This document shows, piece by piece, positions 2,567 through 16,863 of a stretch of 64,000 nt of DNA (position 1 is its first letter; every line of letters starts with the position of its first letter). Location of the stretch: NCBI GenBank assembly GCA_902727855.1, contig CACVAS010000147.1, positions 1-64,000 on the forward strand, read 5' to 3'. The position numbers were made by a program, and so were the translations under genes. This DNA comes from an uncultured Sulfurovum sp. (GTDB taxonomy: Bacteria > Campylobacterota > Campylobacteria > Campylobacterales > Sulfurovaceae). Below the pieces are notes generated by a model, which was not told where the DNA came from, searched no databases, and saw nothing but the letters and a program-made list of their open reading frames with translations.

Positions 2567-5500
2567 CTTTAAATACAACTCTTCTGTTGGTTCAAGTCTC
2601 TAGTGCTTCACTCATGCTACCAACTCCCCACATTTAAATACAACTCTTGTGTTGGTTCAAGCTTATTGGTCTACTTGGTTAACTGGTTATAGAGGTTAAT
2701 TTAAATACAACTCTTGTGTTGGTTCAAGAAGTGAAGCAGAAATAGCCGAAGCTACAGGACGCAGATTTAAATACAACTCTTGTGTTGGTTCAAGAATACC
2801 CACTTAGAGGGCTTTTTGAGCCTTTTATAGATTTAAATACAACTCTTGTGTTGGTTCAAGTCTTTAAAGTCTAGTCTTCCTAAGTCTAAAGCGAATATTT
2901 AAATACAACTCTTGTGTTGGTTCAAGAGATAGAAAAAGATTTAAAATTAAGCTCAGAATCAAATTTAAATACAACTCTTGTGTTGGTTCAAGTCTCACTT
3001 GCACCATCTATAAAATTATTTATTTCCATATTTAAATACAACTCTTGTGTTGGTTCAAGCAATAGAAAGTCTATAGTATCACCTATTCCTATCACATTTA
3101 AATACAACTCTTGTGTTGGTTCAAGGAGATACAAAAGTGTGAACTTTGTTTAATATTCGATTTAAATACAACTCTTGTGTTGGTTCAAGTGATTTTTTCG
3201 CAAACTATGTATTAGAGAAAAGCACATTTAAATACAACTCTTGTGTTGGTTCAAGTACCTAAGATAGTTTTTAATCCCCATGCTTGAGGTAATTTAAATA
3301 CAACTCTTGTGTTGGTTCAAGCTAGCCTCCCTACGTCTCTGTCCACGCTTACGGCAATTTAAATACAACTCTTGTGTTGGTTCAAGTGTTTTGCTCCCAC
3401 TGCAAGAAACTTTTGTGGACATATTTAAATACAACTCTTGTGTTGGTTCAAGCATTTCAATTGTCATTGGAGTTTCAGTTACATTTGTATTTAAATACAA
3501 CTCTTGTGTTGGTTCAAGGCGTTCTTTCGTAGCGTTACTCTCTGCATGATTGACATTTAAATACAACTCTTGTGTTGGTTCAAGATGGGTATCAATGCAG
3601 GTATTCAAGTTGCTAACAAATTTAAATACAACTCTTGTGTTGGTTCAAGAATCATTTTCAAATTTTTCTCTTAATTCGTCTTCTAATTTAAATACAACTC
3701 TTGTGTTGGTTCAAGCAGTGCTATTTGCCCACATTTAAGAAGTGTACTCTCATTTAAATACAACTCTTGTGTTGGTTCAAGTAAATTGTTCTTTCGATGC
3801 TGGTAACGCTACATTAATTTAAATACAACTCTTGTGTTGGTTCAAGCGGTCTTTTTGCTATGGTTTACTTCCTTGTTTTTTCATTTAAATACAACTCTTG
3901 TGTTGGTTCAAGTTAGCTCTTTTAGCATCTCTTTACTGTAGTCTATAATTTAAATACAACTCTTGTGTTGGTTCAAGGCTGATACTGCTCATTAACAAAG
4001 ATAGCATGCCTAGATTTAAATACAACTCTTGTGTTGGTTCAAGTCTAGCCTTATTTATCTCTTCTTGTTCAGAGCTTGATTTAAATACAACTCTTGTGTT
4101 GGTTCAAGCAAGCGAAGACACCAACGCTAACGAAGTGTAGCTTAATTTAAATACAACTCTTGTGTTGGTTCAAGAGTGTCGAGTCTATAATCTCTTTATT
4201 GCTATCAAATTTAAATACAACTCTTGTGTTGGTTCAAGTAGACAAAGTACCAGTCACTGTATGTACTTACCCATTTAAATACAACTCTTGTGTTGGTTCA
4301 AGTTGCAGTTTTCTTGTGGTCTGTCTTAATGTGGATAGCATTTAAATACAACTCTTGTGTTGGTTCAAGGATTGTATCCACTCCCAATCAATCACTCTCC
4401 TCGTCATTTAAATACAACTCTTGTGTTGGTTCAAGCACCGCTTGATGTTGATGAGTCACCGCTTGATGTATTTAAATACAACTCTTGTGTTGGTTCAAGC
4501 ACCGCTTGATGTTGATGAGTCACCGCTTGATGTATTTAAATACAACTCTTGTGTTGGTTCAAGATATATGTATATTCTGTAAAACTTGCCTTTTAGTAGA
4601 TTTAAATACAACTCTTGTGTTGGTTCAAGACTAAACATAGTGGGAGTGTTATTAACATTCCCTTAATTTAAATACAACTCTTGTGTTGGTTCAAGTTCAA
4701 AAGCATTTGACCGTGCCATAGCAGAGGGCAATTTAAATACAACTCTTGTGTTGGTTCAAGTCTTTACGTGCAGAAGAACCTTTAACATTTTCGTATTTAA
4801 ATACAACTCTTGTGTTGGTTCAAGGCTTTTGCAAGATGGTATGTGGTGGTTTTGACCTATTTAAATACAACTCTTGTGTTGGTTCAAGGGTCATCTTTTA
4901 AAGACTGTGGTATTTCACTTTCTAATTTAAATACAACTCTTGTGTTGGTTCAAGGTTCCTTCACGTGTCATTCTTAAAATGTTACCAAGATTTAAATACA
5001 ACTCTTGTGTTGGTTCAAGTTTGTAGGGCTTGTGCACCCTGTACACCTAGATCCATATTTAAATACAACTCTTGTGTTGGTTCAAGCCTTGCTTGGGGAC
5101 ATAAGGATTCCCTTTATAGCTATTTAAATACAACTCTTGTGTTGGTTCAAGCAAGGTGTGAGTGTGTAGGTTACAAACTCCAAAGACATTTAAATACAAC
5201 TCTTGTGTTGGTTCAAGTGGAGAGATTCTTTAAGTGCGACAAGCTCTTTTTCATTTAAATACAACTCTTGTGTTGGTTCAAGTTTCTTTTTTTTTGACTT
5301 GCCAAACTACTCTGATATTTAAATACAACTCTTGTGTTGGTTCAAGATATAGGGTTGGTGAAGTTTTTGAATTAAGAACAGAATTTAAATACAACTCTTG
5401 TGTTGGTTCAAGTGTTGATGTCACACGTAACCCAAGACGTTCTCCTAGATTTAAATACAACTCTTGTGTTGGTTCAAGAAAGAGGGTGGTGGTTCTCAAA

Positions 5501-7630
5501 GATTTGTTTTTGAATTTAAATACAACTCTTGTGTTGGTTCAAGATTACGGTAGTATGTGCCTCAGCTGTAGAAAGTGATTTAAATACAACTCTTGTGTTG
5601 GTTCAAGCTGTTGGTTATTTACCTAATGGTTGTCTATTGATATTTAAATACAACTCTTGTGTTGGTTCAAGAATCAAAATCATAAATGTCAATTTCTAGG
5701 TTCAAGATTTAAATACAACTCTTGTGTTGGTTCAAGTTTAACTGTTTTACCTAAACCCTTGGTAATACAATCATTTAAATACAACTCTTGTGTTGGTTCA
5801 AGAAGGTTTAATCCCTATATTCTTAACAATTACGCTATTTAAATACAACTCTTGTGTTGGTTCAAGACTATACAATCTATAGGAAGATTGATGAGATTGT
5901 AATTTAAATACAACTCTTGTGTTGGTTCAAGCATTCGAGATGGATTTAACTTTAACCCATTACCGAATTTAAATACAACTCTTGTGTTGGTTCAAGGTTA
6001 AAAATAAAATACTAAATGAATTTGAAACACTATTTAAATACAACTCTTGTGTTGGTTCAAGCTACTGCTATAATTGGTGTATAAGTTGGTTGAGAGACAT
6101 TTAAATACAACTCTTGTGTTGGTTCAAGTAATATCCGTAATCAGACTGTAGTACCGCTGTCCAATTTAAATACAACTCTTGTGTTGGTTCAAGTAAGCAA
6201 TCTATTTTTACAGATGGAATACCCACGTAATTTAAATACAACTCTTGTGTTGGTTCAAGCTTACATTGTTTGACCCCAAGTTTAGAAATCTTATATTTAA
6301 ATACAACTCTTGTGTTGGTTCAAGAAGCTGGGTGAACGTGCTAAGGCGATTATATTATCATTTAAATACAACTCTTGTGTTGGTTCAAGAAAGAAGCACT
6401 ACACACTTCCTTAACATAATCGTGAATTTAAATACAACTCTTGTGTTGGTTCAAGGGATAAAACACCAATCCATTTCAATAACTCTATGATATTTAAATA
6501 CAACTCTTGTGTTGGTTCAAGGAAAAATCACTGGAACAATCAACAAAACTTAAAATAATTTAAATACAACTCTTGTGTTGGTTCAAGTAAATGCAAATAC
6601 AGAAGCAATAAACCTGTCTAAATTTAAATACAACTCTTGTGTTGGTTCAAGACACCTAGAGACGCAATAGGATATATATATTACAGATTTAAATACAACT
6701 CTTGTGTTGGTTCAAGATACCTAAATTAATTATGTCTAAAACAGTAACATGATTTAAATACAACTCTTGTGTTGGTTCAAGGTGGTGCAAATGAGCCTAT
6801 GAATGATATTGAATGGTAATTTAAATACAACTCTTGTGTTGGTTCAAGGACAACGGAGCTATTCATAGTGATTTGATAAATAATAATTTAAATACAACTC
6901 TTGTGTTGGTTCAAGTCATTCTAGATGGATTTAACTTTAATCCATTGCCAAATTTAAATACAACTCTTGTGTTGGTTCAAGTAAACTGCACCGATGCTAC
7001 CAAGGACTGCTGTTTGATTTAAATACAACTCTTGTGTTGGTTCAAGTTGTATATTTAAAGATAATGATGTTCTATTATGTGATTTAAATACAACTCTTGT
7101 GTTGGTTCAAGTAGAGGGTAGATTAATAGGTGAGTCACTATATAAATTTAAATACAACTCTTGTGTTGGTTCAAGCCTAACTCTAACATGATACTTTTCA
7201 CTTACTTGTGGATTTAAATACAACTCTTGTGTTGGTTCAAGCATTTTAAATGTGATGAATCGTGGTATGGTCATACTATTTAAATACAACTCTTGTGTTG
7301 GTTCAAGACTCTATTAAAACGAGACAAACATACAGTAACTATATTTAAATACAACTCTTGTGTTGGTTCAAGACATTAAGACAGACCACAAAAAAACTGC
7401 AATAGAATTTAAATACAACTCTTGTGTTGGTTCAAGTCCACCGATCACCGATTGTATGCGTGCCGCTTCTATTTAAATACAACTCTTGTGTTGGTTCAAG
7501 TGAATTTAAGCATAACAGAGCAGTATCAACAAGATAATTTAAATACAACTCTTGTGTTGGTTCAAGTTGCTATTGCTACAGGTACGAGTCCAAAGGGTGA
7601 ATTTAAATACAACTCTTGTGTTGGTTCAAG
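2567..7630 (-). CRISPR. CRISPR array, ~78 x 30-bp repeats with ~77 spacers (34-37 bp)
   Basis: Repeat ATTTAAATACAACTCTTGTGTTGGTTCAAG (sense probably CTTGAACCAACACAAGAGTTGTATTTAAAT). The only degenerate copy I saw is at the leader-distal end, 2567-2596. Manual count. Confidence 0.98.
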
Positions 7631-7804
7631 TAAGACTATATAGGCATCTTCATATTTTAAAAAATGAAGAAACGCCCATATTATCGTAAACTTACATAAA
7701 TTTTCCAATCAAATTATTATTAACAATAAAATATTAAAGAACCTATGTAACATTATGATTATAGCGTAAACACACATGTAATTTTACCAAGTTAGGTTGG
7801 AAAA
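7631..7804 (-). promoter_or_regulatory. Probable CRISPR leader
   Basis: AT-rich non-coding segment between cas2 and the array; the decayed repeat is at the opposite end. Confidence 0.7.
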
Positions 7805-8113
7805 TTATAAAAAAAGTGATTCACTATCCATTTTATTACTTCCTAATATCTCTTCATGAAAAACTGATTTATTTTGAAGTTTCACTATTGATACAAAATC
7901 TAACTTCTCGTCTATGTTCTTTTCTATCTCATCACGAAATCTAATAAGATTTGCAGGAGTAATATTCCCTCTAAAAACTGATTTTTGATGGTGCTTAAAA
8001 TATTTTTTGCAAATCTTGAAAACCTTACTCACACGGTATTTACCAGCATCACTCTCTATATCTGCTATATCATAAAAAACAAAAGCATAATTATAATTAT
8101 AGTTTCTACTCAA
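7805..8113 (-). CDS. cas2: CRISPR-associated endonuclease Cas2
   Basis: ~102 aa, YNYAFVFYDIADIESDAGKYRVSKVFKICKKYFKHHQKSVFRG; next to cas1 and the array. Confidence 0.9.
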   Translation of the reverse strand: MSRNYNYNYAFVFYDIADIESDAGKYRVSKVFKICKKYFKHHQKSVFRGNITPANLIRFRDEIEKNIDEKLDFVSIVKLQNKSVFHEEILGSNKMDSESLFL

Positions 8114-9114
8114 TGCTTATCCTTTAATTTAAATGGCACAAATTCTTTATCTTCTATAAGAAATTTTACAAGTTTATATGCATCATATTTTATGGCACTC
8201 TTATAAGTCGTTTTTCGTTTTAATCGTGGATGCATAAATGGCTCATTAATTCGATTTTCAAAAGCTTCTATAAACACTTTTTTACCTGTCTCATTGAGTA
8301 GTGCATAATTAAGATTTTTATCAAAATGTTTACTTACTTGTAGTTGCTTTTTATTCACTAGATCAAAGATGGTCTTAAATACAATAATTGGCTTGAAAAC
8401 TTCACACATATCTAAGCTTAATGAAAATCTCCCCTCTCTTGGAGAGTGTAAAAAGCTTATAGATTGATTCAGATGTGTATGGTAAATTGCAGATATCGTT
8501 TTCGTATAGAGCAAAGTATTACCAAAGCTAACTAGTGCATTGATAGGATTATCCGGTGGTCGCTTTACACGTTTATTCATCACAAAATCTATAGGTAAAA
8601 AATGCTGAAAACTATCATAAAATCTATTCCATATTTGACCTTCTATGTAGAAAATCTGTTTAATGTCTGGTTCTTTTTCTAAAAATACTGATACATCCTT
8701 TTTAAGCCAATCCAAAAATGGCTTTAGTTCCTTTTTCCCATGTCGATAGTAGTGATACAAAACCTCATGCACATTATCGGCTATCCCCTGCACTATTGAT
8801 CTAGCTATAATAAGCCGTTTGTCAATATATGCTTGTGATTGCCGAATGGTCAAATCTCCACTGATGAGTTGTTCTTTAGGGTAAAAACTTCCTGTGTAGT
8901 TATTATGATAGTTAAAAAAATGAACACATATCCCTGCTTTAGCGATAAAGTCTAAAAATTTGGTATTGAAACTCACTTCATTCATACAGTAGAGTTCACG
9001 TGTATCTTCTATCGGCAAATAAAAATTTCCTTTTTCATTTCTAAATGCAATGGAATTGTCTTTTCTCTTCAGTTCACCCATGCTAAATATATACCGTGTA
9101 TGCTCTTTTGCCAT
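8110..9114 (-). CDS. cas1: CRISPR-associated integrase Cas1 (type I-B-like)
   Basis: YIFSMGELKRKDNSIAFRNEKGNFYLPIED, NPINALVSFGNTLLYT, LHSPREGRFSLSLDMCEVFKP. Confidence 0.95.
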   Translation of the reverse strand: MAKEHTRYIFSMGELKRKDNSIAFRNEKGNFYLPIEDTRELYCMNEVSFNTKFLDFIAKAGICVHFFNYHNNYTGSFYPKEQLISGDLTIRQSQAYIDKRLIIARSIVQGIADNVHEVLYHYYRHGKKELKPFLDWLKKDVSVFLEKEPDIKQIFYIEGQIWNRFYDSFQHFLPIDFVMNKRVKRPPDNPINALVSFGNTLLYTKTISAIYHTHLNQSISFLHSPREGRFSLSLDMCEVFKPIIVFKTIFDLVNKKQLQVSKHFDKNLNYALLNETGKKVFIEAFENRINEPFMHPRLKRKTTYKSAIKYDAYKLVKFLIEDKEFVPFKLKDKH

Positions 9115-9123
9115 CTTTTCCCC

Positions 9124-9621
9124 TTATATAAAACAGTACTCATAATAAGCACATTTTTTACACTTATTATCAAAAACAGCTCCTGGTGGTTTTTCTAAAT
9201 TAATCAATATATCAATCTTAGCCAATACCGCCAAAAGCTCTTGCTCATTCCCCTTATCAAGCTCCACATAATGAACCTTTTTACTCTGTTTTCTCTTCTC
9301 TAAAAACTCTACTTTTCCCTTTTTAAGTACACCTTTTTGCTTTAGCTTATACAAGTACAAAAGCACCTGCCACTTCACAGCCTCGGGGTCAGAGTCACTC
9401 TTTTTTATCTCAACCAAATACTCTTTGGTCAGCTTGTCTATTTTGATGTTATCAATAGACACCTCACCCTTTTTACTCTTTTTCTCTTGAAGTTCATGTA
9501 ACACTTTACCTATACGTACATCTTCAGAGTTGCCTTCTAGGTTTATTCGGTTGGCGTGTAGCCAACATTGGGTTTTACAGTGGAAGTAGTAGTTTATTAG
9601 GGTTCCTGTGATTTGGTTCAT
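9124..9621 (-). CDS. cas4: CRISPR-associated exonuclease Cas4
   Basis: CKTQCWLHANRINLE, RIGKVLHE and C-terminal CKKCAYYEYC cysteine cluster. Confidence 0.95.
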   Translation of the reverse strand: MNQITGTLINYYFHCKTQCWLHANRINLEGNSEDVRIGKVLHELQEKKSKKGEVSIDNIKIDKLTKEYLVEIKKSDSDPEAVKWQVLLYLYKLKQKGVLKKGKVEFLEKRKQSKKVHYVELDKGNEQELLAVLAKIDILINLEKPPGAVFDNKCKKCAYYEYCFI

Positions 9622-11792
9622 AAATATCCATTCCTCTGTTCAATATTCTCAACCTCATCATTTGTTAAACCAATGTCACTACTATAGTGTAAAGCAACAA
9701 CTGGAAATACTCGTTTATAACCATAAGCTTCAAAAAAAGTTATTTTATCTTTGTGCATTCTATACCGATTTTTACTAATCGATACAAAAAGTTTTTCAGC
9801 CTCTAAATATTTTTTATTTTCTATAAATTGTCTAAATTCATCTTCTAGCTCAATCGGTAAAACTTCAATCCCATCAAACTGAGAAAAAAACCCTTCTTCA
9901 CTCTCTTCATAAATATTAAAAGGATATAAATTGTCTAAATATCCTCTAAATTGTTCTCTCAAATCATCGAAATTAAGTTCAAAAGGTTCATATATTTTAT
10001 CTAATAAACTTTGTACCATATCTTCATTGACAACAATATTTTCTATTTTTTCTAACTCTAGTAAAGTATTTTCAATTAAGTTCTCTTCTTTATAGATTAG
10101 TTTATGTACATCTTCAATAACTGATATAACAAAACAGTTAGCTTCATCATTCTCTTTCATCACTCTTTTTTCTTCTCTATTCACACGCCCAAACCGTTGT
10201 AACAAAGCATCCAATGGAGCAGGTTCTGTCACTATCAAATCATAATCAATATCTAAACTTACCTCAATAGCTTGTGTACCTACTAAAAGCTGAGGTTTAT
10301 TATCTGATTGAACCTCTTTCTCTTTTTTGGTTCTATCTCTTGCATTAAATCCACTATGTAAAAGCGTTTTAGTATCACATTCAATGGCATCATACATCTC
10401 TTGTGCTTTGGCAACTGTATTACAAACAACTAAAACAGTTTTAGAGTCATCAATCTTTGATTGAATAAAACTCTTCTGCTTATCTATAGCCAAATCAAGC
10501 AATTTTATTTTGTGTCTTTTAATACCATTAATCAATTTCTTATCTGGTCTAATCTCTTTTTTAATGTTCAAAGTATTTTTTATATGCTCTTGCATAAAAG
10601 TAGGCATAGTCGCTGTCATAATAAAAACTTTAACCTCTAACTTTTCTATAAGCCACTCTATAAAAAATAGTATTCTTCTAAAAAGTTCTCTATCATAAAT
10701 ATGAATCTCATCAAAAATTAGATAACTTCCTGCAAGTTCGGTAAAACCTTTTTCAAATCCTTTAACACCAAAAGCCCATTTCAATATCTGAAATGGGGTA
10801 ACCACTTTAAAAGGTTTGATAATTTTTTTATTAATATCAATTAAGTCCTTTAAACTCTGTCCTTCTTTTCGCTCATAATATTCATCTATAAAAAATTTAG
10901 ATTTTCCATGTAAAAGTCCAACTAAAGACTCATCACCAAAACCTTTACCTTTATTAGAAACTCGTTTTGTCATAGCATTAATGGAAGCTGTAAAAGGTAA
11001 GATATAAAAAGCTCTACCCTGTCTAATACTTAATTGTGTTTGTAGCCACCCTAAGCTACTTTCTGTTTTTCCTTGTCCTGTAGGAGCAATCAAAAGAGCA
11101 TTTTCTTTTGTATTCCAAGAGGCTTTTTGATGATGATATGGTTTATATTTGGTATTATACAAAAAATTAAAATTATCTTGTTCAATAATTGGGATTTTTT
11201 GTATACCTGCTGATGCATTGTGGTCACAAATTGAAAGAGAGGCAGATAAGAATATGTTTTGAAATTTTTCAAGTTCAGATATTTTTCTTCTACTCCTTTT
11301 TGAAGTCCATTTTTTTACAACACTTTTTAAATCATTGATTTTTAACTCTCTTATTTCAATATTTTGCGTTAATAAAAACTTGTTTATCCAAAAAAAATCT
11401 AACTCTTCAAACTCTTTGCTTATCCATCTATCTTGATTATACTTTTCATTATTATCATATTCATTAAACAACTCTTTTAACTTATCAAAATTTTTGTGAT
11501 GCGATAAGACAGCATTAATTATCATCTCATTATCTGTATAGTTTTGGGCTACTATTGCACTCAAAACTTCATGTCTAAATCTATATTTTTGATTATTAGA
11601 CATCAAATTTTGAAACCCTTTTGTACTCTTACCTATATCATGAAAGAGTATAGAGAATTTTAAATCATTCCAAAATTCACTACTCTTAAAAAACTTTTCT
11701 AGTGTGGGAAAAGCCTTTTTAAACTCCTCTGCAACATCCAATAAATCTTGTGTATGTTGCTCTAAACTCAACCCATCAGACTTGGCTAACAT
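9618..11792 (-). CDS. cas3: CRISPR-associated helicase/nuclease Cas3 with N-terminal HD domain
   Basis: HD motif LFHDIGKSTKGFQ, Walker A APTGQGKTE, DEIH box, QRFGRVNR. Confidence 0.95.
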   Translation of the reverse strand: MLAKSDGLSLEQHTQDLLDVAEEFKKAFPTLEKFFKSSEFWNDLKFSILFHDIGKSTKGFQNLMSNNQKYRFRHEVLSAIVAQNYTDNEMIINAVLSHHKNFDKLKELFNEYDNNEKYNQDRWISKEFEELDFFWINKFLLTQNIEIRELKINDLKSVVKKWTSKRSRRKISELEKFQNIFLSASLSICDHNASAGIQKIPIIEQDNFNFLYNTKYKPYHHQKASWNTKENALLIAPTGQGKTESSLGWLQTQLSIRQGRAFYILPFTASINAMTKRVSNKGKGFGDESLVGLLHGKSKFFIDEYYERKEGQSLKDLIDINKKIIKPFKVVTPFQILKWAFGVKGFEKGFTELAGSYLIFDEIHIYDRELFRRILFFIEWLIEKLEVKVFIMTATMPTFMQEHIKNTLNIKKEIRPDKKLINGIKRHKIKLLDLAIDKQKSFIQSKIDDSKTVLVVCNTVAKAQEMYDAIECDTKTLLHSGFNARDRTKKEKEVQSDNKPQLLVGTQAIEVSLDIDYDLIVTEPAPLDALLQRFGRVNREEKRVMKENDEANCFVISVIEDVHKLIYKEENLIENTLLELEKIENIVVNEDMVQSLLDKIYEPFELNFDDLREQFRGYLDNLYPFNIYEESEEGFFSQFDGIEVLPIELEDEFRQFIENKKYLEAEKLFVSISKNRYRMHKDKITFFEAYGYKRVFPVVALHYSSDIGLTNDEVENIEQRNGYL

Positions 11793-12517
11793 AAACTTCT
11801 CAATATAATAGAACTATGTAACTCCTCATCAAAATAAGCATTGCTCAATATCTCATTATCAAATTTTGTAAACTTCCAGTTTTTCATATCAAATAGTTCT
11901 ATTTTATTTCTAGGTTGTTCTAAAAAACTACCCAAACCATCATTAATTAAAAATGGTTGTACTCCTCTTGGTTCTCTAACAATATTACTGTTATCAAAAT
12001 ACTTTGGCATAGCATAGATTTCACCTGAACTTTTAAACTGATTAAATGGAACTATTGTACCGTTTAAAACAGCCTTATCTGACTTTACAACTTTTATCTC
12101 TTTAACCTCTAATACTCTTGCTAAATCTCCACTTCGACCTAAAAGAAGTTGAAAAATAGGAGACTTAAAAGCATTGGCTATTTTTTCATCTTCAAAATAT
12201 AGAGTTAAATAACAATCAAATAGTATCTCTCTTTTAAATGTTGGGTCTTGAACAACATTTTTATTGTTAACAGAATTTCCTTTTTTTTCAAACTTATAAA
12301 TCGTTTCCAAATCTACATATGATGATTGGTATCTAAAAATATAAGAAAATCTAAAATCAACCAACTTATCATCTCCTGTAGCAGATGCAACCATACCTGC
12401 TATAGTTGTATAAGGAATCGCTTTGATACTAAGTTGATTTGAACTTATAAAATTTGGATACCTAAAACTAGCTGTTTGAGCTGTGATAAGTACGCGATAT
12501 AATTTCATATTACACAA
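11786..12517 (-). CDS. cas5: Cascade subunit Cas5
   Basis: MKLYRVLITAQTASFRYPNFISSNQLSIKAIPYTTIAGMVASATGD; Cas5 N-terminal signature and locus context. Confidence 0.85.
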   Translation of the reverse strand: MCNMKLYRVLITAQTASFRYPNFISSNQLSIKAIPYTTIAGMVASATGDDKLVDFRFSYIFRYQSSYVDLETIYKFEKKGNSVNNKNVVQDPTFKREILFDCYLTLYFEDEKIANAFKSPIFQLLLGRSGDLARVLEVKEIKVVKSDKAVLNGTIVPFNQFKSSGEIYAMPKYFDNSNIVREPRGVQPFLINDGLGSFLEQPRNKIELFDMKNWKFTKFDNEILSNAYFDEELHSSIILRSLC

Positions 12518-13632
12518 CGACCGTATCTAGTATTTTAGTAAAATTATCAATTGTTTTATTGATACTATCTGTATGAATCTCAATATCTGATATTTCACTT
12601 TTTAAAATATTTAAACTTACATCATCCATAAATCCACTCATTTTACCAATATAAATATCACTTCTTAAATACTCTTTATTGTCTTCAATAGCCTCTTTTA
12701 AAGCATCTATAGATAAAGTAGCTCGTCCATTCTCTTCTACTGCAATATTATCAAAAATATTATTACCACCTTTTAAAACTGCCAAAATAATAAAATCAGG
12801 CTTTACACTCACATAATTTGTTGTTCTTTTTGCTCCACCTGCAATGGTTTTCAGTGCTAAAATAGTCTCTTTAGCTCTATCTCTTCTTATACTATTTTCT
12901 AATCTTGCTCTTTTCACATTTGGATTTATCAAATCATCTACTTCGCTACCACTCTCTAAAACTTTATCGTAAGTAGTGTCCGTTACATTTTTAAATCCAG
13001 AACGATTGACTTTTGTAAATGTTCCTACTTGGTCTAAATCTAATGAAAACATTCCTTTTAAGACTGTAGAATAAGATTGTTTTTCATAAAGTACTGAATC
13101 ACCATCTTGCCTTGTCATTGATGAACGCTCATTTAGTTCTTTTTTATTAATTGATGTCACAGATGTTAAAATAGAATTTTTAAGTGGACTAATCCTAGTA
13201 ACAGTAATATCAACCATTTTAGGTTTATCTTTATTTTTACTCTTTCCCCCAACTAAAACAACATTTCCCTCTTCGTCTTTAAGTTCATCCTTACTGGCTC
13301 TCATATATCCAAAAATATCATCATCTGCATACTCTAAAGGATTTGCATCTGTATAAGCCACATTTTTACTGCTCACTTTTGTTACAGGACTTAATGACCA
13401 ACCATTTAATCCCAAAGATTCTCTCCACCAATATCTCCACGCCTGACCTGAAACAACACTATGTGTTCTTCCATTTTTAGTTACTTTTTTAACAGCACTT
13501 GTATTATCCATACCTTGTGTATTAGTAGCATCACTTCCCCAATTATTTAAACTTGCACCATCAACATCAATTAAGATTGAACTATGTACAAAATAATTTT
13601 TAACCTCATCATTTTTAACTATCTCTTCAAAA

Positions 13633-15746
<2,114 letters not shown>

Positions 15747-15796
15747 TCAGTATATGTTTTATACTGAAGTATATCCTATAAAGTTAGAAGAAAGTA

Positions 15797-15823
15797 AAAG
15801 TATGTCAAATTGACATACTTTTT
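15797..15823. terminator. Bidirectional terminator-like hairpin between cas operon and ribBA
   Basis: aaaagtatgtcaaattgacatactttt palindrome with A/T tracts. Confidence 0.6.
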
Positions 15824-15828
15824 ATACA

Positions 15829-16863
15829 TTAAACGACTTCAACCTTCTCTACAACATCAAGTCCAAAACCTGCAAGACCTACAAACTCAGTCTCTACATT
15901 GGTTGTAAGAAGGTTAATGTTTTTAATGCCCAAGTCTTTAAGTATTTGTGCACCTACACCAAACTCTTTGGCTTGCTCATGAGAGATGACTTTTGTGTCA
16001 AGAAATATGAGGGTACCACCGTTTAGTTTTAGGTAGTCTATGGAGTTATTGAGGGCAGAAAAACGTTTGTCATCTAGTACTAAACCTATGTCTGTCCCAA
16101 TGTTATGAAACTTTACGTTGGCAGTCTCATGAGACTTGTAAAACTGTATGACGGTATGTGTTCTGTCTAGGTGGTCGGTGTAGGTTATTTTTTCTACTTT
16201 TGTCCCTCTTAGTTCTGTCTCTTCTGTGTTGACACGCTTCACAAGTTGTTCATTTGCCAAACGGTACTCTACAATGTCTGAAATGTAGACAATACACAAG
16301 TCATGTTTCTTAGCAAATGGCTCTAGGTCATCCATACGTGCCATGGTTCCATCATCTTTAATGATTTCACAAATCACTGCCGCTGGTGCTAAGCCTGCGA
16401 GTTTACAAAGGTCTACAGACCCTTCTGTGTGTCCTGTACGTACAAGTACACCACCATCTTTGGCAATCAGTGGAAAGATATGCCCTGGACGTACAAAGTC
16501 TGAAGCCACAGTCTGAGGTGAAGCAAGTTTAGAGATACAATCATCTCTCTCTGCAGAGGAGATACCTGTTGTCGCAATGGTAGAGTCTATAGACACGGTA
16601 AATGCCGTCTCATGGTTAGAAACATTGTTACTCACCATAGGCAGAAGATCTAGCTTGGTTGCTATCTCTTTTGTCACAGGAGTACAAATGAGTCCTCTAG
16701 CCTCTTTTGCCATAAAGTTTACCATGTCTGGTGTAGAGAAAGTTGCAGCATAGACAAGGTCACCTTCATTCTCTCTATCTTCATCGTCCATCATGATGAC
16801 CATACGTCCTCGTTTAGTCTCTTCTATCGCTTTTTCTACTCTTTTTATTGCATCCATTGACAT
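15829..16863 (-). CDS. ribBA: 3,4-dihydroxy-2-butanone-4-phosphate synthase with GCHII-like C-terminal domain
   Basis: MMDDEDRENEGDLVYAA, RPGHIFPL, RTGHTEGSVDLC; C-terminal domain lacks a GCHII Zn-cysteine cluster. Confidence 0.92.
   Translation of the reverse strand: MSMDAIKRVEKAIEETKRGRMVIMMDDEDRENEGDLVYAATFSTPDMVNFMAKEARGLICTPVTKEIATKLDLLPMVSNNVSNHETAFTVSIDSTIATTGISSAERDDCISKLASPQTVASDFVRPGHIFPLIAKDGGVLVRTGHTEGSVDLCKLAGLAPAAVICEIIKDDGTMARMDDLEPFAKKHDLCIVYISDIVEYRLANEQLVKRVNTEETELRGTKVEKITYTDHLDRTHTVIQFYKSHETANVKFHNIGTDIGLVLDDKRFSALNNSIDYLKLNGGTLIFLDTKVISHEQAKEFGVGAQILKDLGIKNINLLTTNVETEFVGLAGFGLDVVEKVEVV

Follow-up and report, generated by a model that had tools for sequence, protein, structure and literature searches.

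Two overlapping spacers from opposite strands in a Sulfurovum type I-B CRISPR array: probably an ordinary trace of related invaders met more than once

CRISPR adaptation is known to yield spacers that come from one site but point in opposite directions, as reportedly described by Shmakov et al. in 2014. In the type I-B system of Haloarcula hispanica, where spacers are acquired by priming, 28 protospacers were downstream of the priming site, and 25 of these lay on its target strand, in the opposite orientation (PMC3936756). A third point of comparison is the type I-B array on pSulSP of Sulfurospirillum sp. 'SP' (2674-6375 of the sequence compared), which has a similar repeat, ATTTCAATACAAATCTTGTGTCGGTTCAAG. 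The array studied here lies in a window of 64,000 nucleotides, the whole stretch of uncultured Sulfurovum DNA that was analysed. It shares with pSulSP the gene order cas3-cas4-cas1-cas2-array and the spacer lengths, but the two arrays have no spacers in common (best cross score 12). Like the H. hispanica system it is type I-B, and it may follow the primed adaptation seen there, in which new spacers cluster near an earlier target and downstream ones are on the opposite strand; there, however, the process was seen in real time with a sequenced virus, whereas here it would be read from one array and overlapping sites. As in the case of Shmakov et al., both orientations of one site are present, but the ends of the two spacers are staggered and cas4 is part of the locus.

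A complete type I-B operon, in the order cas6, cas8b, cas7, cas5b, cas3, cas4, cas1, cas2, lies beside the array (Table 1). The type is given by a Cas8b large subunit together with Cas5b and Cas7 (Cst2/DevR), by the adjacent cas3, cas4, cas1b, cas2 and cas6, and by an array of approximately 30-nt repeats and 34-37-nt spacers that adjoins cas2. The guide-sense repeat is CTTGAACCAACACAAGAGTTGTATTTAAAT. The leader side is the right end: the A+T content is 76% in the flank 7631-7830 versus 66.5% on the opposite flank of the array, and we take 7631-7804 as the leader, with its edge at 7631. At the other end, the terminal repeat (2567-2596) is degenerate, unlike the others. Since the degenerate last repeat and the AT-rich flank toward cas2 agree, the guides are on the minus strand and a higher spacer number means a newer spacer; spacer 27 thus predates spacer 74, an order of acquisition read from the polarity of one array in one strain. 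Spacers 29 and 30 (4436-4533) are identical neighbors, a tandem duplication that leaves 76 unique spacers, and their sequence contains an internal repeat, CACCGCTTGATG...CACCGCTTGATG.

Table 1. Features of the CRISPR-cas locus, with positions counted from the first base of the window.
Feature	Position	Strand	Basis or description
CRISPR array	2567..7630	-	78 repeats of 30 nt, 77 spacers of 34-37 nt
Spacer 27 of 77	4303..4339	-	37 nt, guide GCTATCCACATTAAGACAGACCACAAGAAAACTGCAA; older of its pair
Spacer 52	5932..5966	-	Pairs with spacer 67 on the same strand; PAM-side ends identical
Spacer 67	6916..6951	-	Putative recaptured variant of the spacer 52 site
Spacer 74	7373..7406	-	34 nt, guide TCTATTGCAGTTTTTTTGTGGTCTGTCTTAATGT; newer of its pair
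Leader, AT-rich, between array and cas2	7631..7804	-	A+T content and position adjoining cas2
cas2	7805..8113	-	TIGR01573 1.6e-10; Cas2b 1.9e-28
cas1 (type I-B)	8110..9114	-	TIGR03641 2.5e-118
cas4	9124..9621	-	Cas4b 1.2e-56
cas3 (HD + helicase)	9618..11792	-	TIGR01587 1.3e-74, TIGR01596 2e-22; Cas3b 9.6e-212
cas5b	11786..12517	-	TIGR01895 1.3e-33
cas7 (Cst2/DevR)	12510..13667	-	TIGR02585 2.2e-49
cas8b (large subunit)	13633..15021	-	Cas8b 4.8e-15; no match from NCBIfam
cas6	15012..15737	-	TIGR01877 4.4e-18; Cas6b 1.5e-76

The surroundings of the locus show two further features. A direct repeat of approximately 206 bp, 90% identical between its copies at 2338-2542 and 15791-15996, flanks the entire CRISPR-cas locus. 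Its right-hand copy forms the 3' end of a gene at 15829-16863 that looks like ribBA, and its left-hand copy is a fragment left stranded. Recombination at this gene may have brought the locus in. Adjoining the distal end of the array are a HipA-like kinase gene and, upstream of it, an HTH antitoxin-like gene (483-1999).

When all spacers were compared against all on both strands, three pairs stood out: spacers 29 and 30 (score 34), spacers 27 and 74 (27.5, opposite strands) and spacers 52 and 67 (25.5, same strand). Three shuffled sets reached maxima of only 10.5-12, and the next unrelated real pair scored 11. As an earlier note on this DNA had claimed, the reverse complement of spacer 74 aligns with spacer 27 over 30 nt with 1 mismatch. 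The 30-mer, with up to 3 mismatches allowed, occurs only at these two array sites among 398 genomes of the order and, likewise, among 78 genomes of the genus. Since the score is far above the shuffles and the 30-mer is unique among relatives, the overlap is not due to chance. Merged, the two spacers give a site of 41 nt, GCTATCCACATTAAGACAGACCACAARAAAACTGCAATAGA, of which bases 1-37 are represented in spacer 27 and, on the other strand, bases 8-41 in spacer 74; the two are thus offset by 7 nt at one end and by 4 nt at the other. Spacer 74 contains 4 nt (TAGA) that spacer 27 does not, and each spacer has bases that the other lacks; therefore, neither was copied from the other. The single variable base is guide position 27 of spacer 27 and position 15 of spacer 74. 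The staggered ends and the differing base together indicate two separate captures of two sequence variants rather than an inverted copy. Thus, the proposal that two distant entries of the array record acquisitions from one site and from opposite strands, and that the target was a recurrent one, is supported.

The coding reading of this site fared less well. The earlier note had merged the spacers into a frame, AIHIKTDHKKTAIE, in which the mismatch (AAG/AAA) is synonymous for Lys. The codon change is as described, but the 41 nt are open throughout in two frames, and the mismatch (R) is synonymous in both: as Lys in AIHIKTDHKKTAI and, on the other strand, as Phe (TTC/TTT) in SIAVFLWSVLMWI. Since the second frame fits equally well, no specific gene or frame is shown. 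Moreover, a transition placed at random leaves the amino acid unchanged in at least one open frame for 62% of composition-matched random 41-mers and for 70% of 41-mers from the window; with such chance rates, a synonymous mismatch alone has almost no weight for coding. Of the 14 residues of the proposed peptide, the last (E) is not contained in the spacers, where its codon is present as GA only; the third base came from the repeat, and the residue is D or E. Both guide positions of the variable base, 27 and 15, are divisible by 3, which makes it a third codon position in the preferred phase of the array (see below). This phase suits both candidate frames equally, and from it we infer, weakly, that the target may be coding DNA.

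Spacers 52 and 67 are stronger evidence for a recurring coding target than spacers 27 and 74. They hit one site from the same strand, with guides that start at the same base of it, and mismatch at guide positions 2, 5, 11 and 30, and 3 of these 4 differences are synonymous in the frame I(R/L)DGFNFNPLP. Two of the mismatches are in the seed, as expected if the site was recaptured from an escaped or diverged variant. The existence of this second related pair suggests that the host came across variants of its earlier targets again and again.

A codon phase is also visible in the array as a whole. Stops are depleted in sense frame 0 (29 of 76 spacers versus 47 and 38 in the other frames, p=0.014) and in antisense frame 2 (22 of 76 versus 45 and 39, p=0.0005). 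The antisense bias recurs in the Sulfurospirillum 'SP' array (19 of 53 versus 32 and 34), and over both arrays it amounts to 41 of 129 versus 77 and 73 (p=6e-6), while the sense frame 0 depletion is weak. Spacers of both arrays begin in a preferred codon phase, and both preferred phases put third codon positions at guide positions divisible by 3. Host DNA has a similar phase pattern downstream of GC, TC or CC at -3,-2; this suggests a candidate PAM with C at -2, a reading made without recourse to any protospacer. In addition, guide positions 6, 12, 18, 24 and 30 of the array are enriched in A+T, a 6-base period. In type I complexes, these same positions are flipped out of the R-loop. We considered the period as an R-loop signal, but it is mostly accounted for by codon phase, and the residual A+T contrast between positions 12/18/24/30 and 9/15/21/27 has p=0.07 over the two arrays.

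Searches of IMG/VR, GTDB contigs, phages, plasmids and relatives returned no protospacer for spacers 27 and 74, and the DNA of the merged site and degenerate peptide patterns derived from it gave no match in viral contigs, species genomes, phages, plasmids or 175 genomes of the family. In particular, the patterns HIKTDHKKTA, IKTDHKKTAI, KTDHKKTA and, from the opposite frame, AVFLWSVLMW retrieved nothing from 2.9 million viral contigs, and HIKTDHKKTA nothing from 84,980 species genomes; the peptide that had been put forward as a probe for the invader protein thus found no match in either collection. A shortened opposite-frame pattern had one match, in Lachnospiraceae, among the 84,980 species genomes, which we attribute to chance given the close flanking stops on both sides in that frame and an identity of 23/41. 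Likewise, DGFNFNPLP from spacers 52 and 67 matched two viral contigs that are nearly the same as each other. Only 20-21 of 35-36 bases were identical, and a long ORF runs on the other strand; this is again a chance match. Probes from spacers 65, 77 and 13 found none. Spacer 13 (3387-3422) reads FCSHCKKLLWT in one frame, which had no match in viral contigs; it resembles the zinc finger of Mu-like Com proteins. The whole array, compared with phages and plasmids, returned weak chance pieces only, plus the related array on the Sulfurospirillum plasmid.

Probably, this is an ordinary type I-B array that on two occasions took up overlapping sequence from a single invader lineage, each time from a different variant. 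We infer the shared lineage, and also a priming step, from the two spacers themselves. Spacer 27 would have been acquired first, from one strand of the invader site; many acquisitions later, spacer 74 would have been captured from the other strand of this site, a few bases further along and in a variant with 1 base changed. In type I systems, the seed of the guide is on the PAM side. Since the variable base, at position 27 of spacer 27, is outside this seed, spacer 27 should still recognize the later variant, and its interference may have driven, or primed, the capture of spacer 74. The orientation of spacer 74 relative to spacer 27 fits the downstream pattern of H. hispanica, for one pair only; H. 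hispanica reportedly acquires spacers by priming alone. Priming of spacer 74 is therefore plausible, although priming and two independent naive captures give the same picture here. The latter reading, two unrelated acquisitions from a much-sampled virus population in which limited PAM sites suffice, differs from our explanation only in the priming step, and we hold it to be a serious candidate with a somewhat less than even chance. If 76 spacers sample 10 to 1 viruses of 40 kb, 0.07-0.75 shifted or opposite overlaps are expected, a rough guide that assumes uniform sampling of sites. A special hot-spot mechanism is thus not needed. The upper value, which applies when a single 40-kb virus is the source of most spacers, favors naive captures, but with ten or more viruses the expectation is at most 0.07, and yet two related pairs exist.

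A bolder version of the priming scheme is that cleavage of the variant invader, directed by the spacer 27 guide, took place exactly here, and that spacer 74 was acquired for this reason, from the other strand of the very protospacer that did the priming. We regard this as doubtful; if true, the pair would be a natural record of interference-driven opposite-strand capture, with two guide RNAs complementary over 30 nt. Both orientations of one site could also arise from misoriented ("flipped" or slipped) integration, in which one favored prespacer site is captured twice, once inserted the wrong way, so that only one spacer has a proper PAM. Although this agrees with the oppositely oriented spacers already described for adaptation, the two spacers do not share their ends, and the locus has cas4; Cas4 reportedly determines which PAM new spacers have and how they are oriented (PMC8406132). 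We consider such an integration improbable. Hardly credible is a rearrangement within the array, by which spacer 74 would be an inverted duplication of spacer 27 followed by drift. The array does contain one tandem duplication (spacers 29 and 30), but the TAGA of spacer 74 contradicts copying, and the repeats that flank spacer 74 are normally oriented and identical to the others.

On our preferred explanation, in which a single invader lineage was sampled twice as different variants, this pair of spacers is genuine but unremarkable testimony that related invaders were met more than once. It is a known kind of event and leaves existing knowledge of CRISPR adaptation unchanged. The merged site provides a 41-base probe for an invader that is absent from the databases searched. 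For this Sulfurovum, the pair would mean that variants of one invader were encountered on occasions far apart in time.
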